Below are positions 24,684 through 38,689 of a stretch of DNA of 64,000 nucleotides, in pieces (positions within the stretch are counted from its first letter, which is position 1; every line of letters begins with the position of its first letter). The notes beneath the pieces were generated by a model, which was not told the origin of the DNA, did no database searches, and was given only the letters and a program-made list of their open reading frames with translations. Both the position numbers and the translations under genes were made by a program. Source of the DNA: Acidimicrobiales bacterium (lineage in GTDB: Bacteria > Actinomycetota > Acidimicrobiia > Acidimicrobiales > MedAcidi-G1); the NCBI GenBank assembly GCA_029577135.1, contig JARQPW010000008.1, positions 1-64,000 of the forward strand. The letters are read 5' to 3'.

Positions 24684-26327
24684 ATGACCGACGCCCCCAG
24701 CGCCCCGAGCATCCTCGTCCTGCACCTCGGGCTGCTCGAGGCCTACGCCGCAGTCGACCGGGCGGGCCGGATCGACCTCGTCGCCCTCGGCGGCGACCGG
24801 TCCGGAATGCCGATGGTGCTGCACGTCTCGACCGGAGGGGACGTGACCGTCGGTGAGGAGGCCCTGCAGCGAGCCGTCGACGAGCCCGAGGGCTTCGTCG
24901 ACGATGTGATGGGACACCTCCTCGACGACGGAGTCGTCGAGGCATCTGGTCGCGCGCTCAATGCCGAGACCGTCCTCGCCTACCTCATGGCCCAGTCCTA
25001 CGCCCGCTGCCTCCGGATTCTCGACGGGGCACCCGACCAGGTTGTCGTCGTACGTGCCGCCGGGGGACCGGACGAGGCGACCTACGAGGCCGCTGCCGGT
25101 CGGGGCCTCGTCGGCGACATCCTGATCCTCGACGAGACCAGGGCGTGGTCGGCCTTCAGCGGCCATGCCCCTCCGGGGACCAAGGGGATGGACCCGGAGC
25201 GCACCGGGGTGTTGGGGGCACTGCTGTGGCTCCGGCACGGCGACGCACCGACCGGACCCAAGCCGATCGTCACCCGGGAGGACCTCGAGGGGGCCGCCCC
25301 CTCGCAGGTTCGCCAACCGGCGCCACCGAGCGTCGCCTCGGTGGGGCCCCGCTCCGTCTTCGACGCCCCACAATCGAAGCCGTCGGTCCTGGCCGATCCT
25401 GCATCGCAGCGTCGTCGACCGCGACGCACGCCGGTGCCCCTGTTGGTCGTCCTCCTGGTCGCCGCTCTGGCGGTCCTCGGGTACCTGTTCTTCATCGACG
25501 ATGAGGAGCGGACACCGCTGGTCACGACACTGAGCCCCACCACCACGACCGAGGTGCCGGCCACGACCGAGGTGCCGGCCACGACCGAGGTGCCGGCCAC
25601 GACCGAGGTGCCGGCCACGACCGAGGTGCCGGCCACGACCGAGGTGCCGGCCACGACCGAGGTGCCGACCACGACCGAGGTGCCGGCCACGACCGAGGTG
25701 CCGACCACGACCCGGCCGCCGCTCGGCCCCGTGAGCATCTCCGATGTGGGCCTCCTCCTCTTCGCCGCCAGCGACGACTCCACGCTCCTGGACCTGGGCA
25801 GACCGGCGGACGCCGTCCTCGACGCCATGGCCGCGGTGCTCGGCGCCCCCGATCGGGACAGTGGCTGGGGGCCGGACCCGAGGTGTGACGCCCCCCTCGT
25901 CCGGCGGGTCGGCTTCGGCGGTCTCGAGTTGGTTCTGGTCGACCCGGATCCGACCGACTTCCCACCTGCCGGGGATGCGGCAGCTGGCGAAGCCGAGACG
26001 ACGACGACCGGGGTACCGCCGGGCGAGCCGGGGTTCGGCGCCACGTTCGACCAGTGGTTCCTGAGTGGCGCCGATTCCGTCGACTCCGGCTTCTGGACCC
26101 TCGAGCGGATCGGCGTCGGCTCGACCGTGGCCGACATGCGCACGGCCTACTCCGGCGGCTTTTCCATCGTCCAGGCGGTCGAGACCGATCCCGCCGGCTT
26201 CTTCGACCTCGACGCGGTCGGCCTCGACGGGGGGATCTCCGGGGCCACGAGCAACACCACCGACTCGGGCCGCGTCCTCCAACTGTGGGCAGGCGAGGCC
26301 TGCTCCCGGCTCTTCGGACGGACCTGA
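24684..26327 (+). CDS. Membrane-anchored degenerate Hsp70-like protein with Thr/Pro stalk
   Basis: 547 aa, and I do not recognise the whole. Residues 10-165 align by eye with the N-terminal Hsp70 ATPase lobe: LHLGLLEAYAAV stands where IDLGTTNS is expected, followed by TVGEEALQRAVDEPEGFV and ILILDETRAWSAFSG. The phosphate-loop Gly-Thr-Thr is lost. A transmembrane span (about 250-271) precedes nine TEVPAT repeats (about 288-345) and an outside domain of about 200 residues with two Cys. The N-terminus should be cytoplasmic and the C-terminus outside. A TAGGGT box at 24630-24635 may serve as promoter. The function is unknown; it could transmit a signal across the membrane. Confidence 0.8.
   Translation: MTDAPSAPSILVLHLGLLEAYAAVDRAGRIDLVALGGDRSGMPMVLHVSTGGDVTVGEEALQRAVDEPEGFVDDVMGHLLDDGVVEASGRALNAETVLAYLMAQSYARCLRILDGAPDQVVVVRAAGGPDEATYEAAAGRGLVGDILILDETRAWSAFSGHAPPGTKGMDPERTGVLGALLWLRHGDAPTGPKPIVTREDLEGAAPSQVRQPAPPSVASVGPRSVFDAPQSKPSVLADPASQRRRPRRTPVPLLVVLLVAALAVLGYLFFIDDEERTPLVTTLSPTTTTEVPATTEVPATTEVPATTEVPATTEVPATTEVPATTEVPTTTEVPATTEVPTTTRPPLGPVSISDVGLLLFAASDDSTLLDLGRPADAVLDAMAAVLGAPDRDSGWGPDPRCDAPLVRRVGFGGLELVLVDPDPTDFPPAGDAAAGEAETTTTGVPPGEPGFGATFDQWFLSGADSVDSGFWTLERIGVGSTVADMRTAYSGGFSIVQAVETDPAGFFDLDAVGLDGGISGATSNTTDSGRVLQLWAGEACSRLFGRT
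25551..25712. repeat. 18-bp tandem repeat, nine copies, Thr/Pro stalk
   Basis: Nine in-frame 18-bp units encode EVPATT (two units carry Thr for Ala). They form the extracytoplasmic stalk after the membrane span. Confidence 0.95.
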
Positions 26328-28218: not shown

Positions 28219-28692
28219 TCAGTCGTCGATGGAGATGACCGAGGCCGTGAGGGTGCCACCCGGCGCCTCGAACGAGACCTTGTCGCCCGGGGTGCTGCCC
28301 AACAGGGCCTCGCCGAGCGGTGACCCCGGCGACACGACGGTGAGGCCGTCGCGCTGTTCCTCGATCGAGCCGACCAGGAGCTGCTCGGGTTCGTCGTCGC
28401 CGTCGTAGAGCACGGTGACCACTGTGCCGGTCGTGACCGTGTCGCCGTTCCCGGTGGGTGCCTCGACGATCACGGCGTCGAGCAGGATTGCCTCGAGGTG
28501 CAGGATCCGGCCCTCCATCTTGCCCTGCTCCTCCTTGGCGGCGTGGTAGTCGCCGTTCTCGGAGAGGTCGCCGAGCTCTCGGGCCGTCTCGATCTTGCGG
28601 GCGATGTCGATGCGTCCGCGGGTGGTGAGGTCCTCGAGCTCTGCGGCGAGGCGCCCATGCGCGTCGGGGGAGAACTGCTGCGGTTCGGGCAT
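28219..28692 (-). CDS. greA: Transcription elongation factor GreA
   Basis: 157 aa, normal for GreA, from ATG 28692. The N-terminal coiled coil (L..EL..LTTRGRIDIARKIETAREL, key: RIDIARKIETARELGDLSEN) ends in GDLSENGDYHAAKEEQ, the acidic tip that helps RNA polymerase cleave backtracked RNA. The C-terminal domain ends SPLGEALLGSTPGDKVSFEAPGG (key: SPLGEALLG). A TACGCT box (28699-28704) exactly 6 nt before the ATG indicates a leaderless start. It is divergent from leuB. Confidence 0.96.
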   Translation of the reverse strand: MPEPQQFSPDAHGRLAAELEDLTTRGRIDIARKIETARELGDLSENGDYHAAKEEQGKMEGRILHLEAILLDAVIVEAPTGNGDTVTTGTVVTVLYDGDDEPEQLLVGSIEEQRDGLTVVSPGSPLGEALLGSTPGDKVSFEAPGGTLTASVISIDD

Positions 28693-28738: not shown

Positions 28739-28769
28739 TTGACCCGCCTCCGGGGGGGCTTGGTACACT
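28739..28769 (+). promoter_or_regulatory. Promoter of the branched-chain amino acid operon
   Basis: TTGACC (28739-28744) and TACACT (28764-28769) form a -35/-10 pair with a 19-nt spacer, slightly long. The expected start site is at or next to 28776, the first base of the leader ORF. So the transcript would be leaderless. Confidence 0.6.
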
Positions 28770-28775
28770 GCACCC

Positions 28776-28811
28776 GTGCACAGTCCCCACCCGGTGATCC
28801 TGATTTCGTAG
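28776..28811 (+). CDS. Leader peptide with Val-Ile-Leu-Ile codons
   Basis: GTG 28776 to TAG 28811 encodes [11 protein letters not shown]. Codons 7-10 (GTG ATC CTG ATT) specify Val, Ile, Leu, Ile, the end products of the operon downstream. The -10 box ends 6 nt before the GTG, so it appears to be translated from a leaderless message. Its stop codon touches the first hairpin. By analogy with the ilv and leu leaders of other bacteria, ribosome stalling here when charged Val/Ile/Leu tRNA is scarce would control termination at 28839-28863. This is inference from layout and has not been tested. Confidence 0.7.
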
Positions 28812-28833
28812 CGCACGCGCTTCCGGCGTGCGC
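28811..28833 (+). promoter_or_regulatory. Leader hairpin 1 of the attenuator
   Basis: A perfect 8-bp stem, GCGCACGC (28811-28818) with GCGTGCGC (28826-28833), and a 7-nt loop. Its 5' arm begins at the last base of the leader stop codon, so a ribosome stalled on the Val-Ile-Leu-Ile codons would cover part of it. Confidence 0.65.
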
Positions 28834-28838
28834 CCCGA

Positions 28839-28863
28839 CCGTCCACCTCGGTGGGCGGTTTTT
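28839..28863 (+). terminator. Intrinsic terminator (attenuator) upstream of leuB
   Basis: The stem CCGTCCAC/GTGGGCGG (28839-28846 with 28851-28858, one G-U pair) closes a CTCG loop and is followed at once by five T (28859-28863). It lies between the promoter and leuB on the coding strand, so it would stop transcription before the operon unless overridden. Confidence 0.75.
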
Positions 28864-28935
28864 CCGTTCCGGGGCACACTCGTACCCACCAGAACCCACC
28901 AGTCCGACGACACGACACCCGAGGAGCAGTCACAC

Positions 28936-29913
28936 GTGGCCTATCGCATCGGCGTCATGGGAGGCGACGGCATCGGCCCCGAGGTCGTCGCCGAGGGCCT
29001 CAAGGTCGTCGCGGCCACGGGCGTCGAGCTCGAGACCGTGGACTACGACCTCGGCGGCGACCGCTACCTCCGCGACGGCACCGTCCTCCCCGACGAGGTC
29101 ATCGAGGAATGGCGTGTGCTCGACGCCCTCTATGTGGGCGCAGTCGGCACCCCCGACGTCCCTCCGGGGATCATCGAGCGTGGCCTGTTGCTAAAGATGC
29201 GCTTCGCCCTCGACCTCTACGTCAACCTCCGACCCTTCGTGCTCGCCGAGGACGACATCGACTTCTGCGTCGTCCGTGAGAACACCGAGGGCGCCTATGC
29301 CGGCGAGGGTGGCTTCCTGCGCAGGGGCACGATGCACGAGATCGCCACCCAGGGCTCGGTCAACACGCGCCGGGGCGTCGAGCGCTGCATCCGCTTCGCC
29401 TTCGACCTGTCCCGGAGCCGCCGGAACCACCTCACGCTCGTCCACAAGACCAACGTGCTCACGTTCTCGGGCGACCTCTGGGAGCGCACCTTCGACGAGG
29501 TGTCCGCCGACTACCCCGACGTGGAGACTGCCTACAACCACGTCGACGCCGCCTGCATCTACTTCGTGCAGGATCCGCAACGCTACGACGTCATCGTCAC
29601 CGACAACCTCTTCGGCGACATCCTCACCGATCTCGGCGGCGCCGTGTCGGGGGGCATCGGCTTCGCCTCGTCGGCGAACCTCAACCCGGCACGCACCGGA
29701 GCGTCGATGTTCGAGCCGGTCCACGGCTCCGCGCCCGACATCACGGGTAGGGGCATCGCCAATCCGACCGCCGCGATCCTCTCCGCTGCGATGATGCTCG
29801 ACTTCCTCGGCGAAGAGGACGCCGCCCGACGCATCACCGCCGCCTGCGCCGACCCGGCCACCCAGGTCGAGGGCACGGTCGCGATCGGCGATGCCATCGC
29901 AGCGCGGGTCTAG
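28936..29913 (+). CDS. leuB: 3-isopropylmalate dehydrogenase
   Basis: 325 aa from GTG 28936 with GAGGAG about 9 nt upstream; the frame is open further but covers the attenuator. [13 protein letters not shown] is the N-terminal motif. [16 protein letters not shown] and [22 protein letters not shown] (key: [13 protein letters not shown]) are the family signatures for NAD and metal binding. It oxidatively decarboxylates 3-isopropylmalate for leucine, and 3-methylmalate when the citramalate route makes isoleucine. The presence of cimA in the same operon suggests both uses. The closest confusion is isocitrate dehydrogenase. Confidence 0.92.
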
Positions 29914-29979: not shown

Positions 29980-30897
29980 ATGCCGATCGAGAAGGTTGAC
30001 AAGATCTGGATGAACGGCGAACTCGTCGACTGGGACGATGCCACGATCCACGTGCTGACGCACACCCTCCACTACGGCAACGGCGTCTTCGAGGGCATCC
30101 GTGCCTACGAGACCGACCGCGGGCCGGCGGTGTTCCGGCTCACCCCCCACATCGAGCGCCTGTTCCGCTCGGCGAAGATCCTCTACATCGACATCCCGTG
30201 GACGGTCGACGACCTGGTGTCGGCCGTCAAGGACACCGTGCGCGTCAACGACATCTCGTCCTGCTACATCCGGCCACTGGCCTACCTGGGCTACGGCGAG
30301 ATGGGGCTCAACCCGATCCTGTGCAAGGTCGACGTCTCGGTCGCCTGTTGGCCGTGGGGCTCCTACCTCGGCGACGACGGCATCGCCCAGGGCGTGCGTA
30401 CCATGATCTCCTCTTGGCAGCGCCACGACCCCAACGCCATGCCGCCGGCCGCCAAGGGCTGTGGCCACTACATCAACTCGCAGATGGCCAAGGTCCAGGC
30501 GCTCAAGTCGGGCTACGACGAGGCGATCCTGCTCTCCCCACAGGGCTACGTGTCCGAGTGCAGTGGCGAGAACATTTTCGTGGTGCGCGACGGCACGATC
30601 GTCACACCGCCGGCCAGCGCCGGCGCCCTCGAGGGCATCACCCAGAACGCCGTGCGGCGCATCGCCGAGGACCTCGGCTACGACTACGTTCAGGGCAACA
30701 TCCTGCGCAGCGACCTCTACACCGCCGACGAGGCCTTCCTGTCGGGCACCGCCGCCGAGGTGGTGCCGATCCGGTCGGTCGACGACCGCGAGATCGGCGA
30801 CCCCGGCCCCGTCACATGCGCCATCCAGGAGGTCTTCTACGAAGCGGTCCGTGGGAAGCGTCCCGAGTATGCGGAATGGAACGAGTATGTCGACTGA
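29980..30897 (+). CDS. ilvE: Branched-chain amino acid aminotransferase
   Basis: 305 aa, PLP fold type IV. HYGNGVFEGIRAYET near residue 31 and ECSGENIFVVRDG are class IV signatures, and K159 in AAKGCGHYINSQ is the expected PLP lysine. EGITQNAVRRIAEDLG and FLSGTAAEVVPIRSVD (key: FLSGTAAEVVPI) bind the cofactor phosphate. It carries out the last step of Val, Leu and Ile synthesis with glutamate. It lies 66 nt after leuB and its end overlaps the cimA start, placing it in the attenuated operon. Confidence 0.96.
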   Translation: MPIEKVDKIWMNGELVDWDDATIHVLTHTLHYGNGVFEGIRAYETDRGPAVFRLTPHIERLFRSAKILYIDIPWTVDDLVSAVKDTVRVNDISSCYIRPLAYLGYGEMGLNPILCKVDVSVACWPWGSYLGDDGIAQGVRTMISSWQRHDPNAMPPAAKGCGHYINSQMAKVQALKSGYDEAILLSPQGYVSECSGENIFVVRDGTIVTPPASAGALEGITQNAVRRIAEDLGYDYVQGNILRSDLYTADEAFLSGTAAEVVPIRSVDDREIGDPGPVTCAIQEVFYEAVRGKRPEYAEWNEYVD

Positions 30898-32515
30898 CTC
30901 CGTCCCGTCCTCGGGGGTGCTGCCGGCCGCAGTCGAGATCTACGACACGACGCTGCGAGATGGCGCCCAGTTGGAGGGCATCTCGCTCACGGTCGACGAC
31001 AAGTTGCGCATCGCCGATCAGCTCGACCGGCTCGGCGTCCACTACATCGAGGGCGGCTGGCCGGGCGCCAACCCGAAGGACGAGGAGTTCTTCGAGCGCG
31101 CCCGTAAAGAGCTCGATCTGACCACCTCGAAGCTGGTTGCCTTCGGCTCGACCCGCAGCGTCAAGGGCAGGGCCGACGACGACCCCACGCTCGCCAACCT
31201 GGTCGCCGCCGGCACCGAAGTGGTGTGCATCGTTGGCAAGGCGTGGGATTTTCACGTCACCGAGGCGCTGCGCACCACGCTCGAGGAGGGCGTGGCGATG
31301 GTGGCCGACTCGGTGCGGTTCCTGAAGGACCAGGGGCTCACGGTCTTCTTTGACGCCGAGCACTTCTTCGACGGCTACGACGCCAATCCCGAGTTCTCGC
31401 TTGCCGTCCTCGAGGGCGCTGCCATGGCCGGTGCGGACTGTCTGGTGCTGTGCGACACCAACGGCGGCTCGCTGCCCGGGCGGGTGGAGGCGACGGTTCG
31501 CGCCGTCGTCGCCCACCTCGACACCCCGGTCGGTGTGCACCTCCACAACGACACCGGATGCGGCATCGCCAACGCCCTCGCCGGAGTGGCCGGAGGCGCC
31601 ACCCACGTCCAGGGCACGATCAACGGCTACGGCGAGCGGGTCGGCAACTGCGACCTCGTGCCGATCATCGCCAACCTGAGCCTCAAGATGGGCGTCGAGA
31701 CCCTCCCCGAGGGCCGGCTGGCCCACCTCACGTCGGTGGCGCACCACGTCGCGGAACTGGTCAACTTCGCCGCCGACCCGCAGCAGCCCTACGTCGGCAC
31801 GAAGGCCTTCGCCCACAAGGCCGGCCTCCACGCCAGTGCGATCGCTCGCCGCTCCGACGCCTACGAGCACGTGTCCCCGGAACTCGTCGGGAACGGCACC
31901 CGCTTCGTGGTTTCGGAGATGGCCGGCAAGTCCACGATCGCCCTCAAGGCCACCGAACTCGGGCTGGACCTCGACGCCGCCACGATGGGCGACATCGTCG
32001 AGACCCTGAAGGAACTCGAGTACGTCGGCTACCACTTCGAGGCGGCCGACGCCTCCCTCGAACTGCTCATGCGGGCGGCCGCCGGCTGGGAGCAGGACTA
32101 CTTCCGCCTCGAGTCGTTCTCGGTCAACGTCGGCCATCGTTCGGGCAGCGGCAGCCGGGCCTGGAACGAGGTTGCCGTCGATGTCGAGACCGAGGCCACC
32201 GTCAAGCTCTGGATCGACGACGAGCGGATCATCGCCACCGGCGAGGGCAACGGGCCCGTCAACGCCCTCGACGCGGCGCTTCGCCAGGCACTCGGCGCAC
32301 GGCATCCGAGCCTCGAGCGCCTGCACCTCACCGACTACAAGGTGCGCGTCCTCGAGACCAGCAGGGGCACCGGCGCCGTGACCCGCGTGCTGATCGACTC
32401 GACCGACGGCTCGCGCACCTGGTCGACCATCGGCGTGTCGGAGAACATCATCGAGGCCTCCTGGCAGGCGCTCGTCGACGCCATCGTCTACAGCCTCCTC
32501 CACGCCGCCGACTGA
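30887..32515 (+). CDS. cimA: Citramalate synthase
   Basis: 542 aa from ATG 30887, overlapping the ilvE stop; the long open frame upstream is overlap. IYDTTLRDGAQLEGI is the metal/substrate motif of the alpha-isopropylmalate synthase family. Other blocks are FFDAEHFFDGY, LHNDTGCGIANALAG, GTINGYGERVGNCDL and a C-terminal regulatory domain (about 400-542). The AEHFFDGY and GYGERVGN forms match the CimA (TIGR00977) branch, as opposed to LeuA. It condenses pyruvate and acetyl-CoA to citramalate, giving a threonine-independent route to isoleucine. Confidence 0.92.
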   Translation: MSTDSVPSSGVLPAAVEIYDTTLRDGAQLEGISLTVDDKLRIADQLDRLGVHYIEGGWPGANPKDEEFFERARKELDLTTSKLVAFGSTRSVKGRADDDPTLANLVAAGTEVVCIVGKAWDFHVTEALRTTLEEGVAMVADSVRFLKDQGLTVFFDAEHFFDGYDANPEFSLAVLEGAAMAGADCLVLCDTNGGSLPGRVEATVRAVVAHLDTPVGVHLHNDTGCGIANALAGVAGGATHVQGTINGYGERVGNCDLVPIIANLSLKMGVETLPEGRLAHLTSVAHHVAELVNFAADPQQPYVGTKAFAHKAGLHASAIARRSDAYEHVSPELVGNGTRFVVSEMAGKSTIALKATELGLDLDAATMGDIVETLKELEYVGYHFEAADASLELLMRAAAGWEQDYFRLESFSVNVGHRSGSGSRAWNEVAVDVETEATVKLWIDDERIIATGEGNGPVNALDAALRQALGARHPSLERLHLTDYKVRVLETSRGTGAVTRVLIDSTDGSRTWSTIGVSENIIEASWQALVDAIVYSLLHAAD

Positions 32516-32526
32516 TCCAGGTCGAG

Positions 32527-33210
32527 GTGTCGATCGTGTCCGGGGAACGCCGCCGCGGCCTGTTGGCCGAGGGGATCGGGACCTGCTTCCTGCTCATCGG
32601 GGTGGTCGGGTCGGGGATCATGGCCGAGCGGCTCAGCCCCGACGACGTGGGGCTGCAGTTGCTGGAGAACGCCGCGGCCACCGCTGTGGTGCTCATCGCC
32701 ATCATCTCGATCTTCGGGACGATCTCGGCCGACTTCAACCCGGCGGTCACCCTTGCGGCGTGGATGCTGGGCCACCGGTCGGGACGGGAGGTGCCTGGGA
32801 TGGTCGTCGTTCAGGTGCTGGGCGGCTGTGTCGGCACCGTGCTCGCCAACATCATGTTCGACCTGTCGTGGGTTGATGCATCAACGCAGGTCCGCAGCGG
32901 CGGGAACCTCTGGCTGGCCGAGGTGGTGGCGACGATCGGGCTGCTGCTCGTGGTCTTCTCCCTCGTGCGCACCGCCCGCATGTCGGCCATGCCGTACGTG
33001 GTCGGCGCCTACATCGGCGGCGCCTACTTCTTCACGTCGTCAACCAGCTTCGCCAACCCTGCGGTCACCGTGGCCCGCACGCTGTCGGACACCTTCGCCG
33101 GCATCGAGCCCTCGTCGGCACCGATGTTCGTGCTGATGCAGGTGGTCGGGGTCGGCGTGGCGGTCGCCCTCGTCCAGGTGCTCTTCCCCGATCGGGGGTC
33201 AGGCTCCTGA
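32527..33210 (+). CDS. MIP/aquaporin-family channel
   Basis: 227 aa from GTG 32527 (GTG 32536 is possible). It has six membrane spans and two half-helices with NPA boxes: FNPAVTLAAW (NPA 71-73) and FANPAVTVART (NPA 177-179), with the selectivity Arg at 183. It conducts water or small neutral solutes. The ORF lies 11 nt downstream of cimA on the same strand, so it may be read from the same transcript. The selectivity (water, glycerol or metalloid) cannot be told from what I see. Confidence 0.92.
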   Translation: MSIVSGERRRGLLAEGIGTCFLLIGVVGSGIMAERLSPDDVGLQLLENAAATAVVLIAIISIFGTISADFNPAVTLAAWMLGHRSGREVPGMVVVQVLGGCVGTVLANIMFDLSWVDASTQVRSGGNLWLAEVVATIGLLLVVFSLVRTARMSAMPYVVGAYIGGAYFFTSSTSFANPAVTVARTLSDTFAGIEPSSAPMFVLMQVVGVGVAVALVQVLFPDRGSGS

Positions 33211-35691
33211 TCCGCACTGGTCGAGTGCCGGGTCGCCCGCCACACGGGCCTCCAGCCAGGCGATCAGGTCGTCCTGGTAGGCGACAACCGAAGACCCGTG
33301 GTTGGTGCCCGGGTAGACGCGGCGCTCCAACGGGGCATGACCCTCCAGGGCGCAGAGTTGGGCCAGGAGCACCTCACTCGACGCCACGGGGATCTGTTCG
33401 TCCTCGTCGCCGTGCAGGATGATCGTCGGTACCTCATTGGGTCGCTGGTTCGTGTCGTTCTCGAGCAGCCGGGCGTTCCACTCGGGGAGGGCGAAGATGT
33501 CGTCGACGGTCAGCAGGTCCTCGTACGGGATCGGATTGAACACGTCGAAGATGTGTCCGGTACAGCCGTTCTCGAGCTCGTCGAGCAGGGACCGGTACTC
33601 CGGGGCGACGAGCGACGCTAGGTCCAACTCGTCGTAGGCGGCGGCGAGGCCGGCACCAGCCATCGTGAGGTAGCCCTGGAAGTCGCCGCCCCGCAGGAAG
33701 GTGCTCAGGAGTGGGAACTGTGAGGGGGGCGCCCCGGCGGCCACGCCGACGAGGTCCAGTTCGGGGGCCAGGTCGGTCCAGCGCTCGGCGACGTGCATCG
33801 CTGCGTGGCCACCCTGTGAATGGCCCCAGACGACGAGTGGGCCATCGGCGCCGAGGCCGGGCACCTTCTGGGCCGCACGGACGATGTCGAAGGCCCCACG
33901 TGCCTCGCTCTCGCCCACGATGTAGGGGTGCAGGCCCGGGCCTCCGAGTCCCTCGTAGTCGGTGGCGACGACGACCCAGCCCTGTTCGAGCAGGGGAGCG
34001 ATGAATCCGAGGACGTAGTCGTTGGGGAATTCGAGCGAGGGGGCGCAGGCGTCGGCGAGGCCCGTCGTGCCGTGGGTGATCGACAGCACCGGCCGGGGGC
34101 CGTCGGCGCTCTCAGCGGGAGCGATGATCACGCCGGTCACTTCGATCGGGTTCCCGTTCACCGCCTGTGAACGGTAGACGACGCGCCAGGCCTTACCCAG
34201 GTGGAGCCATCCACCCAGGTCAACCGGTTCGCTGTCCAGGATCGCACCGAGGGCGTCGGAATCTTCCGAGGCGGGGAGTGGTTCGAGTTCCGCTTCGTTC
34301 AGGAGCGCTCCGAGGATCCTCTCTGCCAACTCACCGACATCGGGATCGGCGGGAAGGACGTTCGCTGACACGGCGATGGCGATGTCGTGGTCGGGGTAGT
34401 AGGCGGCGTGGCTTCGGAAGCCGGGCACGCCGCCACCGTGCGACCAACTGGTCGTACCTGCGGTCGTGCCGACGCTGATCCCCAGGCCGTAGTCGCTGAA
34501 CTCGCTGGTGGTCAGGAACTTGGTGACCGCTGCGTCGTCGAGGAGCGTGCCGTCGAACATGGCCCGGAAGGTGCGTGCCACGTCGGCGACCTGCGCTTCG
34601 ATGCTGCCGCCGGTCCAGCCGGCCGAACGGATGGCCTCCTGAGGGACGACGGAGATGTCGTAGACATCGCCAAGGTCGGCCTCGGGGTAGGAGGCGGTCG
34701 CCGGGATGGCGTCGAGGGCCGCCTTGAGGATGGTGGCGGCGTAGCCGTGGACGACGGATTCCGGCGGTTCCTCGGCAGGCGGCAGGAAGATGTCGTCGAG
34801 GCCGAGCGGGTCGAAGATGCGTTCCCGCAGGACCTCGTGGGCGGGTTGTCCGGTCACCGACTCGATGATGAGGCCGACGACGTTGTGGCCGACCGTGTTG
34901 TAGGAGTAGGAGGTGCCCGGCACGTACTGCGGCCCCCTGGAGAGCGCCCAGTCGACGATCTCCTCCGGTTCGACCACGGTCTCGAGGCGTGTCGACATGA
35001 GCAGGTAGAACTCCAGGTCGAAGGCGTACTCGGCGAAGCCGTCCGTGTGGTTCAGGACCTGGCGGACCGTGACCTGGTTGCCGTAGTCGACGCCGTCGAG
35101 GACGTAGCCGTTGAGGAGGTCGCCCACGTAGGTGGCCACGGGCTCGTCGAGGTCGACGAGGCCCTCCGACACGAGTTGGAGCATGGCGACCGAGGTGATC
35201 GTCTTCGAGATCGAACCGATTCGGAAGTAGTCGTCCGTGGCCACCGGCACCTCGGCCACGAGGTCGGCCAGGCCCCGTGCCACGAGGACCTCGGTGCCGT
35301 CGGGGAGGAGGACGGCGACGCTGACCCCGGGAGTGACCGGCGTGCCCTCCGACAGCCACACGTCGGCGACCTCGGTGACGATCCCCTCCCAGTCGGGCGG
35401 CGGGAGTGTGGTGGTGGTCGTGGTGGTGGTCGTGGTGGTGGTCGTGGTGGGGGGGGCGGCCGTGGTGGTGGTCGTGGTGGTGGTCGTGGTGGGGGGAGCA
35501 GTCGTGGTGGTGGTCGTGGTGGGGGGAGCAGTCGTGGTGGTGGTCGTGGTGGTGGTCGTGGTGGTGGGGGCGGCCGTGGTGGTGGTCGTGGTGGTGGTCG
35601 TGGTGGTGGGGACGACCCGTTCCGGCGTCGAACCGGAGCATGCGGCGCCCACGAGTGCGATCGCCAGGAGGACGACGTGGTGCCTGCGCAT
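33199..35691 (-). CDS. Beta-lactamase-fold serine hydrolase fused to secreted lipase-like domain (lipoprotein)
   Basis: 830 aa from ATG 35691; the much longer open frame upstream overlaps the DMT exporter and is not coding. Residues 1-18 are a lipoprotein signal (VGAAC, Cys18), and 28-95 are almost pure Thr. A beta-lactamase/PBP-like domain follows: SISK (S160 to K163), YSYNTVGH with the Tyr-x-Asn element, and SWSHGGGVPGF near its end. From about residue 450 a secretory-lipase-like alpha/beta hydrolase begins: SITHGTTG, then VVWGHSQGGHAAM with the nucleophile Ser, and PTIILHGDEDE and GTNHGSS supplying acid and His. Two hydrolases in one anchored chain is unusual. Confidence 0.88.
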   Translation of the reverse strand: MRRHHVVLLAIALVGAACSGSTPERVVPTTTTTTTTTTTAAPTTTTTTTTTTTTAPPTTTTTTTAPPTTTTTTTTTTAAPPTTTTTTTTTTTTTTLPPPDWEGIVTEVADVWLSEGTPVTPGVSVAVLLPDGTEVLVARGLADLVAEVPVATDDYFRIGSISKTITSVAMLQLVSEGLVDLDEPVATYVGDLLNGYVLDGVDYGNQVTVRQVLNHTDGFAEYAFDLEFYLLMSTRLETVVEPEEIVDWALSRGPQYVPGTSYSYNTVGHNVVGLIIESVTGQPAHEVLRERIFDPLGLDDIFLPPAEEPPESVVHGYAATILKAALDAIPATASYPEADLGDVYDISVVPQEAIRSAGWTGGSIEAQVADVARTFRAMFDGTLLDDAAVTKFLTTSEFSDYGLGISVGTTAGTTSWSHGGGVPGFRSHAAYYPDHDIAIAVSANVLPADPDVGELAERILGALLNEAELEPLPASEDSDALGAILDSEPVDLGGWLHLGKAWRVVYRSQAVNGNPIEVTGVIIAPAESADGPRPVLSITHGTTGLADACAPSLEFPNDYVLGFIAPLLEQGWVVVATDYEGLGGPGLHPYIVGESEARGAFDIVRAAQKVPGLGADGPLVVWGHSQGGHAAMHVAERWTDLAPELDLVGVAAGAPPSQFPLLSTFLRGGDFQGYLTMAGAGLAAAYDELDLASLVAPEYRSLLDELENGCTGHIFDVFNPIPYEDLLTVDDIFALPEWNARLLENDTNQRPNEVPTIILHGDEDEQIPVASSEVLLAQLCALEGHAPLERRVYPGTNHGSSVVAYQDDLIAWLEARVAGDPALDQCGSGA
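35406..35610. repeat. Poly-Thr tract of the fused hydrolase
   Basis: A GGT/GGTGGTCGT-type low-complexity run encodes five Thr blocks of 7-14 residues each, separated by AAP or APP. It makes a long glycosylation-prone or extended linker. Length change by slippage is likely. Confidence 0.9.
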
Positions 35692-35739
35692 GAGCGGAGT
35701 CTGGCTGCAACCGGTGACGGACACCCACCCCGGCACCAC

Positions 35740-35745
35740 TACGTT
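35740..35745 (+). promoter_or_regulatory. -10 box (TACGTT) for leaderless DMT gene
   Basis: TACGTT is followed by 6 nt and ATG 35752. Confidence 0.5.
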
Positions 35746-35751
35746 GCGACA

Positions 35752-36639
35752 ATGCCCGAGCAGTCGGAGGCCCCCGAGTCGCGTCCGTTCCTCCCCTTCG
35801 ACTGGCTGCTCCTGGTCACGGCCGCCGGAATCTGGGGTGCGTCGTTCCTGTTCATGGACGTGGCCCTCGACCACGAGCACCCGGGCCTCGTCGCCTTCCT
35901 CCGGCCGGCCCTCGGCCTCCTCGCCCTGCTCGCCTTCCCGGCCGCCCGCCGCCCGGTCGACCGGGCCGACCACGGTCGCCTCGTGGTGCTCGGCATCACC
36001 TGGATGGCGTTCCCGCTCACGATGTTCCCCCTCGCCCAGCAGTGGATCGATTCCTCGGTGGCGGGGATGCTCAACAGCGGGATGCCCGTGTCGACGGTGC
36101 TCGTCGCGGCGCTCGCCTTCGGCGTACGCAGCAGTCGCCTCCAGGTGGCGGGCATCCTCACCGGGATCGTCGGGATCCTGCTGATCGGACTGCCCACTGC
36201 CACGACGGGGGACACGAGCGCCCTCGGCGTGCTGTTCGTGCTCCTCGCCGTGACGTCCTACGGGATCGCCGCAAACCTCGCCGGCCCGTTGCAGAGGCGC
36301 TACGGCTCGCCGGCGGTCCTGAGTCGAGTGCTGGCGGTCGCCACCGTCGCGACCCTGCCCTTCGGGCTGTTCGGGCTGGCCGACTCCTCGTGGTCGACAC
36401 AGGCCTTCGCCGCCAACCTGGCGGTCGGCCTGGGAGGCACCGGCGTGGCCTACCTCGCCGCCGCCACCCTCGTCGGCAGGGTCGGTCCGGTCCGGATGTC
36501 GGTCGTGACCTATCTCGTGCCCGTGGTCGCCGCCGTCCTGGGCGTGGTGGTCCTCGGGGAGGCCCTCGTCGCATGGCAGGTGCTGGGCGCAGCGGTCCTC
36601 ATCGGCGGTGCCTGGCTCACCACAGGAACGTCCCGCTGA
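35752..36639 (+). CDS. EamA/DMT-family transporter
   Basis: 295 aa with about ten membrane spans in two EamA repeats. GIWGASFLFMDVAL begins span 1. The second half contains LLAVTSYGIAANLAG and ends in PVVAAVLGVVVLGEAL (a typical P-G-E element before the last spans). The start is ATG 35752. Family members export amino acids, sugars or metabolites, and the substrate here is unknown. It is divergent from the beta-lactamase-lipase gene. The stretch 35692-35739 between them holds only promoter-like sequence. Confidence 0.93.
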   Translation: MPEQSEAPESRPFLPFDWLLLVTAAGIWGASFLFMDVALDHEHPGLVAFLRPALGLLALLAFPAARRPVDRADHGRLVVLGITWMAFPLTMFPLAQQWIDSSVAGMLNSGMPVSTVLVAALAFGVRSSRLQVAGILTGIVGILLIGLPTATTGDTSALGVLFVLLAVTSYGIAANLAGPLQRRYGSPAVLSRVLAVATVATLPFGLFGLADSSWSTQAFAANLAVGLGGTGVAYLAAATLVGRVGPVRMSVVTYLVPVVAAVLGVVVLGEALVAWQVLGAAVLIGGAWLTTGTSR

Positions 36640-36649
36640 ATCGGGCGCC

Positions 36650-38689
36650 TCAGAGCGCCTGGCAGAGGCGTCGGGCGTCGTGGATGGCGGCGTGAACGTT
36701 CCGACTGGCGAGAGCGTCGCCGACCAGATGCACGTCGAATCCGCCACTCGACTCCGGCTGCGGCTCGAACGCGAGCAGGGCGTCGAGGTCGGTCACGCCA
36801 CCGTTGGCCGAGCGGGCCGCCAGGTCGTGGAAGATCCCGTCGTCGGGCACGGTGCCGTGCTCGACGGCGACGGTGTCGACGGTCCGCCGCTGTTCGACGC
36901 CGGTGTAGGCGTTCGCCAGCACGGCCTCGAGGCCACCGTCGACCCGGTGGACGGCGACGAGGCGGTGGTCGGGGGTGAGGACGACGCCCGCAGCGTGGAA
37001 CCGCTCGAGGTAGGCGGGGTACACGGTGCCGATGAGCTCGGGCCCGACCATGCGGTCCGGCGTGGCCAGTTCGACGCGGTGGCCGCGATCGAGCAGGTAC
37101 TCGACGCAGGAGAGTGCTTCGACGTTGCCGTGGTCGTCGTAGACGAGGACGCTCGACCCGGCGCCGGCTTGGCCGGCGATCACGTCCGCCACGCTGACGA
37201 GGAGGGCGTTGCCCTCGGCACCCGTCGGCAGCACCTCGGTGTCCGGCCAGCCGCCGCTGGCCACGACCACGACGTGAGGCGACTCGGAGACCACGTCGTC
37301 GGCGTCGACGGGCGTGTCCAGCCGGAGGTCGACCCCGGCGAGGCGGACCTCGGCCTCCAGCCAGTCGACGATGCCGAGCAGGTCGCGCTGACGTGCCGAC
37401 GCCCGGGCGGCGAGCCGCAGTTGGCCTCCCGTCTCTGACCGGGCCTCGACGAGGACGACGTCGTGGCCGCGTCCGGCACACACTCGGGCCGCCTCGAGTC
37501 CCGCCGGGCCGGCGCCGACGACGACGACCCGACGGGCCGGTCCCCTCCCGGGGGGCGTGATCTGGGGGATCGTGGCCTCCCGGCCCGTGGCGGGGTTCTG
37601 GATGCACAGCGCCTCGAGCCCCACATAGATCCGGCTGAGGCAGAACGAGGCACCGACGCAGGTGCGGATCCGGGTTTCCTCGCCCCGCTCCAGTTTGGCG
37701 ACGATGTGCGGATCGGCGATGTGGCCACGCGTCATGCCGATCAGGTCGACCAGTCCCTGCTCGATGGCGTGCCGGGCGGTGGCCAGGTCGGGGATGCGGC
37801 CTGCGTGGAAGACCGGCAGGTCCACGGCCTCCTTGATCGCTGCGGCCACCGGCAACTGGGCGCCGATCGGGGTGCCCATGGGTGGAATGACCTCGGCGAG
37901 TGCCGGGTCCGTTGCCAGGTTGCCGCTGATCACGTTGACGAAGTCGAGCAACCCCGTCGTCGCCAGCCGCCGGGCGATGTCCGTGCACTCCTCCCGGCTG
38001 AGGCCGTCGTCGAGGCGCTCGTCGCCCGAGAGCCTGATGCCGAGCAGGACCCGGTCGCCGATCGCGTCGCGGATCGCCTCGAGCACCTCGAGGCCGAAGC
38101 GCAGACGGTTGTCCAGGGAGCCGCCGTAGCGGTCGGTGCGTCGGTTCACCGCCGGGCTCCAGAACTGGTCGATCAGGTGGCCGTAGGCGATGACCTCGAC
38201 CCCGTCGAGCCCCGCCTCTGCGACGCGTCGGGCCCCGGCCGCATAGGCGGCGACCACCCGGCGGATGTCCGGTTCCTCCATGACCCGGGGGAAGCTCCGA
38301 TGGGCGGGCTCCCGGACCCGGGAAGGGGCGATCGTCGGCAACCAGTCGCCGTCGTCCCAGATCGTGCGCCGGCCCATGTGGGTGATCTGGCACATCACCG
38401 CTGCCCCGAGGGCGTGGACGGCGTCGGCCAACTCGCGCAGGCCGGGCACGACGTCATCATCCCCGGCGTAGAGCTGCCCCCAGATCGACGGCGAGTCGGG
38501 CGCCACGTTGGTCGAGCCGCCGACCATGGTCAGGCCGATTCCGCCACGCGCCTTCTCCTCGTGGTAGCGGACGTAGCGGTCGGTGACCTTGCCGTCGACG
38601 CAGTAGCCCGGGGTGTGGCTGCTCGAGAACACCCGGTTGCGCAGCGTGAGCCCGCCGACGGTGAGCGGAGTGAGGAGTGGATCGGTCAT
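36650..38689 (-). CDS. Old yellow enzyme/FAD oxidoreductase (DgcA/2,4-dienoyl-CoA reductase type)
   Basis: 679 aa from ATG 38689. Residues 1-370 form the FMN-binding barrel (LRNRVFSSSHTPGY, GGSLDNRLRFGLEV). The Fe-S segment follows: C344, C350, C362 in RTCVGASFCLSRIY and ALCIQN, but A347 replaces the second ligand Cys. Residues from about 388 form an FAD/NAD domain (VVVVGAGPAGLEAA). Enzymes of this size include 2,4-dienoyl-CoA reductase, trimethylamine dehydrogenase and N-methyl amino acid demethylases. From memory the GASFC form resembles the demethylase (DgcA-like) branch. The substrate is not established. Confidence 0.9.
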   Translation of the reverse strand: MTDPLLTPLTVGGLTLRNRVFSSSHTPGYCVDGKVTDRYVRYHEEKARGGIGLTMVGGSTNVAPDSPSIWGQLYAGDDDVVPGLRELADAVHALGAAVMCQITHMGRRTIWDDGDWLPTIAPSRVREPAHRSFPRVMEEPDIRRVVAAYAAGARRVAEAGLDGVEVIAYGHLIDQFWSPAVNRRTDRYGGSLDNRLRFGLEVLEAIRDAIGDRVLLGIRLSGDERLDDGLSREECTDIARRLATTGLLDFVNVISGNLATDPALAEVIPPMGTPIGAQLPVAAAIKEAVDLPVFHAGRIPDLATARHAIEQGLVDLIGMTRGHIADPHIVAKLERGEETRIRTCVGASFCLSRIYVGLEALCIQNPATGREATIPQITPPGRGPARRVVVVGAGPAGLEAARVCAGRGHDVVLVEARSETGGQLRLAARASARQRDLLGIVDWLEAEVRLAGVDLRLDTPVDADDVVSESPHVVVVASGGWPDTEVLPTGAEGNALLVSVADVIAGQAGAGSSVLVYDDHGNVEALSCVEYLLDRGHRVELATPDRMVGPELIGTVYPAYLERFHAAGVVLTPDHRLVAVHRVDGGLEAVLANAYTGVEQRRTVDTVAVEHGTVPDDGIFHDLAARSANGGVTDLDALLAFEPQPESSGGFDVHLVGDALASRNVHAAIHDARRLCQAL

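Follow-up and report, generated by a model that had tools for sequence, protein, structure and literature searches.

The ilvB1NC attenuator of Mycobacterium tuberculosis comprises a short branched-chain amino acid (BCAA) upstream ORF (uORF) with four sensor codons and an intrinsic terminator in a 166-nt leader (PMC13236596). Mutational experiments demonstrated that the LVVI codons of the ilvB1 leader are needed for induction, and a ribosome residing on the stop codon was proposed to block the antiterminator (PMC13236596). Leader peptides with Ile, Val and Leu (I/L/V) codons, together with terminators, were predicted upstream of actinobacterial ilvB genes in 2005 (PMC1262725), and a Leu-codon leader lies upstream of leuA in the actinobacterial LEU element, which is characterized by a pseudoknot and a base stem to the Shine-Dalgarno (SD) box (PMC1262725). 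The Corynebacterium ilvB-II motif consists of an I/L/V-codon uORF and two stem-loops, the second of which is the terminator (PMC10272879, PMC11857589); its uORF spans the first stem (P1), its antiterminator shares bases with the terminator, and its description gives a single copy per genome, confined to the ilvB upstream region. In C. glutamicum, the transcription start site lies 1 nt from the start of the ilvB leader (PMC11857589), and in Streptomyces lividans the leaderless BCAA leaders ilvL, leuL1 and leuL2, of 12–15 residues, precede ilvBHC, leuA and leuS (PMC8079986). Mycobacterial polycysteine uORFs are likewise short leaderless ORFs sensing the product amino acid, with the differences that this is cysteine and that the citing paper describes them as translation attenuation (Canestrari 2020, cited in PMC13236596). 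Counting against codon sensing, codon changes in the S. coelicolor ilvB leader had no effect, as cited in PMC1262725.

We analyzed a 64,000-nt stretch of an Acidimicrobiales contig (the window), which derives from a metagenome-assembled genome (MAG) whose nearest named relative is the MAG Actinomycetota bacterium NIOZ-UU63, and in which a candidate attenuator lies in front of leuB, ilvE and cimA. The family to which this element belongs resembles the M. tuberculosis attenuator, and its ilvB paralogues often carry LVV(I), comparable to LVVI; however, it also occurs at leuB, leuA, cimA and ilvE, and its stop-anchored hairpin has no base overlap with the terminator. This hairpin begins at the stop codon, in contrast to P1 of ilvB-II, and the order of a hairpin and then a terminator would set the family apart from the LEU element. 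The S. lividans leaders encode different peptides, and PMC8079986 does not describe a family-wide stop-anchored hairpin. A literature search of largely open-access papers returned no report of leuB-ilvE-cimA or cimA attenuators, of this stop-anchored attenuator family or of any Acidimicrobiia attenuator, and no paper in it joined the truncated terms Acidimicrobi and attenuat with leader peptide.

A preliminary description of the locus had proposed a promoter closely followed by a GTG-initiated leader ORF with a Val-Ile-Leu-Ile run, and a perfect hairpin at its stop codon; all of these features were confirmed (Table 1), and hairpin 1 was found to start with a base pair formed by the G of UAG. 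The second hairpin with its T run indeed represents a strong terminator, located 72 nt upstream of leuB, but the gap separating it from hairpin 1 is ~3–4 nt rather than the claimed 5 nt. Folding yielded a minimum free energy of −39 kcal/mol (z −2.7), and the terminator scan found 2 terminators versus 0.2 expected. At 19 nt the promoter spacer is long, and a strict sigma-70 scan did not list this pair of boxes; nevertheless, each of the 14 members of the family used for comparison has similar boxes at equal distance, with variants such as TAGGCT. NCBIfam models confirmed the three downstream genes named previously, with an uncertain exact start of cimA that could lie up to ~30 nt further upstream. 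No Rfam family, T-box or other, matched the region at the gathering threshold, and at E up to 5 there was only a chance-level match (E 0.78). The transcription elongation factor gene greA (28222-28692, − strand) is divergent from leuB in the window and seemingly also in several relatives of the order. Elsewhere in the window, PATTEV repeats follow one another in an ORF at 24684-26327 (+ strand), and a long ORF at 33199-36747 (− strand) has a Thr-rich stretch.

Table 1 Features of the leuB-ilvE-cimA leader region in the window, and the two further candidate elements of the same genome.
Feature	Coordinates	Strand	Details	Basis
Promoter	28739..28769	+	−35 TTGACC 28739-28744; 19-nt spacer; −10 TACACT 28764-28769	Sequence; kept in relatives
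Leader ORF	28776..28811	+	11 codons + UAG stop: GTG CAC AGT CCC CAC CCG GTG ATC CTG ATT TCG TAG	GTG start 6 nt past −10 box
Sensor codons −5 to −2	28794..28805	+	GTG ATC CTG ATT (Val-Ile-Leu-Ile)	
Hairpin 1	28811..28833	+	Perfect 8 bp; arms GCGCACGC 28811-28818 / GCGTGCGC 28826-28833	
Intrinsic terminator	28837..28863	+	10 bp, GACCGTCCAC-CTCG-GTGGGCGGTT + T run; hairpin 28837-28860, T run 28859-28863	Folding, terminator scan
leuB ribosome-binding site	28921..28926	+	GAGGAG	Sequence
leuB	28936..29913	+	3-isopropylmalate dehydrogenase; GTG start 28936	NF002898, 482.9 bits, above cut-off
ilvE	29980..30897	+	Branched-chain aminotransferase	TIGR01122, 415 bits, above cut-off
cimA	30914..32515	+	Citramalate synthase	TIGR00977, 671.7 bits, above cut-off
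leuA attenuator candidate (L193)	G000:C9:19110-19193	−	Leader MRQNFDLLLLT	Window's own genome
ilvB attenuator candidate (L194)	G000:C1:18211-18288	−	Leader MTTAHEVLVLR	Window's own genome

The element is real and conserved, well above chance. Comparison of the leuB upstream regions from ~90 genomes of the order revealed it in 55, nearly all of them of different genera, with a common layout of a −10 box, a short ORF, a Val/Ile codon run, a stop codon, a stop-anchored hairpin and a terminator, the latter mostly of the form CCGTCCAC/GTGGGCGG. The pattern search gave no element in the other ~35 regions, some of which lay at contig ends or preceded a leuB that was not the first gene of its operon. 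A second set of named genomes, drawn by leuB similarity and partly overlapping the first, showed the layout in 31 or 32 of 80. In the family to which the window's leader belongs, each of the 14 leaders compared had exactly 11 codons, with variable residues 2–6, an invariant Val at codon −5 and an invariant Ile at codon −2 (codons are numbered backward from the stop). A T-G wobble pair in the middle of the stem of the leuB-class terminators (28842/28855 in the window) was present in 39 of 48 aligned sequences, and was retained though a Watson-Crick pair is one change away.

A covariance model built from the leuB elements (R1) gave matches in 75/99 genomes of the order, second copies among them, and a second model (R2) matched 92/99 genomes of the order, 111/148 of the class and 75/296 of the phylum. 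The paralogues were positioned upstream of ilvB, leuA, cimA, ilvE and one leuS-like gene, and all classified copies except the leuS-like one were found at branched-chain biosynthesis genes; the classes were assigned from sequence motifs, with an NCBIfam check of the window genes, of leuA and ilvB in the window's genome (G000) and of one cimA. This genome has three copies, each with an 11-codon leader: VILI-S at leuB, LLLL-T at leuA and VLVL-R at ilvB. One ilvE was preceded by a VILLV leader (L155). Outside the class, copies were located upstream of ilvB, cimA and leuA; the R2 matches L332 and L339 from this group look like chance. In other classes of the phylum, elements with Ile/Val codons were noted upstream of cimA (L329, RIIGS; L330, TVIID; L331, TVIIT). 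The leuS-like copy (L226, G037:C141) has a Leu-codon leader, TLLLM, a UGA stop, a hairpin and a terminator, the leuS (leucyl-tRNA synthetase) label being our own reading of the protein. A search of the trpE upstream regions in 25 relatives (L349-L373) gave no Trp-rich leader.

The codons in front of the stop were strongly biased in position, in frame and in meaning. Among the 55 leuB elements, I/L/V codons occupied positions −5 to −2 in 75–93%, compared to 13–20% at −10 to −6 and 16% at −1. Over the elements as a whole, the I/L/V share of the sensor codons was 81–92% in frame versus 1–7% in the two shifted frames. This overall share is partly built in, as I/L/V codons before the stop were required by the leuB rule and its results served to train the models; no such circularity affects how Leu, Ile and Val are divided among the classes of downstream gene. 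At codons −5 to −2, the leuA class contained 87 Leu, 0 Val and 1 Ile of 96, with Leu-only leaders in 23 of 24 elements; the cimA class had Ile at 15/16, with Ile only reported for 4/4 elements; the ilvB class had 58 Leu, 106 Val and 15 Ile of 200; and the leuB class had 3 Leu, 70 Val and 105 Ile of 220. Codon identity depended on the downstream gene across 134 elements, with a chi-square of 366 (6 d.f.), a value that treats codons as independent, which they are not strictly, although the contrast per element was equally sharp. Synonymous codons exchanged at the sensor positions (ATC/ATT, GTA/GTC/GTG, CTC/CTT/CTG), leaving only the amino-acid meaning conserved. As in attenuators of the trp/his/ilv type, the leader carries codons for the product of the pathway, in a composition that tracks the downstream gene, and a terminator precedes the first structural gene. 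The order-wide conservation and the operon-matched codon switching lend strong support to the branched-chain leader-peptide attenuator predicted in the preliminary description, and the element is very probably an amino-acid sensor.

The position of the leader start pointed to leaderless translation. With start codons assigned independently of the promoter, −10-like hexamers in 135 elements were concentrated 5–11 nt before the leader start, ending there ~11 times at each position compared to 0.8 times outside this range, a spacing that would place the transcription start at, or a few nucleotides from, the start codon. SD-like cores preceded the leader ORF in just 17 of the 135 elements, in agreement with the ribosome site that had been noted as missing. 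The window leader, with its GTG 6 nt after the −10 box, is probably leaderless and would begin at or near the 5′ RNA end, as suggested previously. This property is not the novelty for which it was taken, as it had already been reported in Streptomyces and Corynebacterium (PMC8079986, PMC11857589).

Comparison of the relatives showed that the Val/Ile run of the leader is conserved across the order and that hairpin 1 covaries. In the leuB class, pairing within hairpin 1 covered 7.8 of 8 positions when both arms came from one species and 4.0 when arms of different species were combined; hairpin 1 was defined as the best stem that follows the stop codon, which favors the 7.8/8 value, while the swapped control used identical stems. 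These stems were determined per sequence, since several sequences were aligned wrongly at hairpin 1 by MAFFT and RNAalifold counts understate it. In 87 of 93 elements, the start of hairpin 1 lay 1–3 nt into the stop codon, and across the family the gap to the terminator was mostly 2–6 nt, with no overlap of bases.

This layout resembles the 1:2 and 3:4 helices of the classical attenuators, in which, as in trp and his, a stalled ribosome would mask the 5′ arm of hairpin 1 and free the 3′ arm to act as the antiterminator. Consistent with such a mechanism, masking up to +9 made the 5′ arm of the terminator less accessible in the leuB class, with a drop from ~0.9 to 0.5; however, this effect was weak or absent in the ilvB and leuA classes. 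We searched for the antiterminator by folding with the ribosome masked at several positions, by comparison to shuffled sequences, and by own-versus-swapped duplexes, and none of the three detected one. The RNA left free by masking (up to +12) folded no better than shuffles (z 0.14 for leuB and 0.97 for ilvB), and occlusion of the ribosome-covered bases, the approach suggested for revealing a conventional antiterminator, left terminator folding unchanged, with a mean helix probability of 0.88–0.97 in the leuB, ilvB and leuA classes at every tested ribosome position. The weak competitor pairing initially noted between 28831-28835 and 28853-28857 fared no better: the 3′ arm of hairpin 1 paired with either terminator arm no better within than between species. 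By these calculations there was neither a competing structure mutually exclusive with the terminator nor coevolution with it, and the sensor codons do not include codon −1, the best location for masking hairpin 1. We consider the classical three-element switch unlikely, though still deserving serious consideration, and an antiterminator of this type may possibly fall below the sensitivity of our calculations.

Three other explanations were considered. Conserved hairpins would be expected of an RNA that binds a protein or a ligand, such as a LEU element or a riboswitch, where the codons matter as RNA sequence alone, and mutations of Streptomyces leuA/ilvB codons had little effect, as far as PMC1262725 relates; but synonymous exchange at the sensor codons, the varying sequence of hairpin 1 and the lack of an Rfam match make this very unlikely. 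The short conserved C terminus, VIxI, might suggest that the peptide itself arrests the ribosome upon sensing a small molecule. Such nascent-chain arrest appears extremely improbable for a peptide of just 10–12 residues, which would stay inside the exit tunnel, with variable N-terminal residues and sensor residues that switch with the pathway. Intergenic terminators are common and the terminator-like site is real, yet the notion of plain terminator or processing hairpins between greA and leuB with a coincidental ORF carries practically no weight: order-wide in-frame Ile/Val/Leu codons and their matching to the pathway rule out coincidence.

We favor, with a probability of roughly 0.86 and on the strength of comparative sequence evidence, a ribosome-mediated transcription attenuator of leuB-ilvE-cimA sensing charged Val and Ile tRNA (with one Leu codon in the window); that the codons match the pathway speaks for sensing by ribosome stalling. 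We infer the following course of events. Transcription would begin at or a few nucleotides from GTG 28776, and a ribosome would initiate on the leaderless 11-codon ORF, cross about six variable codons and read the four sensor codons. Where charged tRNA is available, this ribosome would reach the UAG at the base of hairpin 1 and be released, and the adjacent terminator would stop transcription; upon starvation, the ribosome would stall at a sensor codon and RNA polymerase would read through to leuB. Because codons −5 to −2 sense and codon −1 does not, the stalled ribosome would mostly spare hairpin 1 or fray its base. The switch best fitting this geometry is one in which the state of hairpin 1, folded while the ribosome waits upstream and melted with the ribosome on UAG, acts on the terminator 2–6 nt away by sterics or timing, requiring no shared bases. 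A folded hairpin 1 would then signify read-through, a logic that, by analogy, suggests a resemblance to the M. tuberculosis ilvB1 proposal; as ribosome footprint sizes are uncertain by several nucleotides, this logic is something we infer. Tentatively, and as a possibility that we rate below even odds, the stop-anchored hairpin may report ribosome arrival and tune the terminator directly without a shared-base antiterminator, in a cassette reused with sensor codons swapped for each branch of the pathway.

The codon content points to control of leuB-ilvE-cimA as a Val/Ile operon and hardly by Leu, which would fit the citramalate route to isoleucine. The missing shared-base antiterminator poses a concrete, testable puzzle on how such short attenuators switch. 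The family represents a natural codon-swap experiment, in which the codons of one cassette change with the downstream gene (Leu, Ile, Val/Leu or Val/Ile), and the match of these codons to the gene behind the cassette makes the sensed amino acid readable from sequence in uncultured bacteria.
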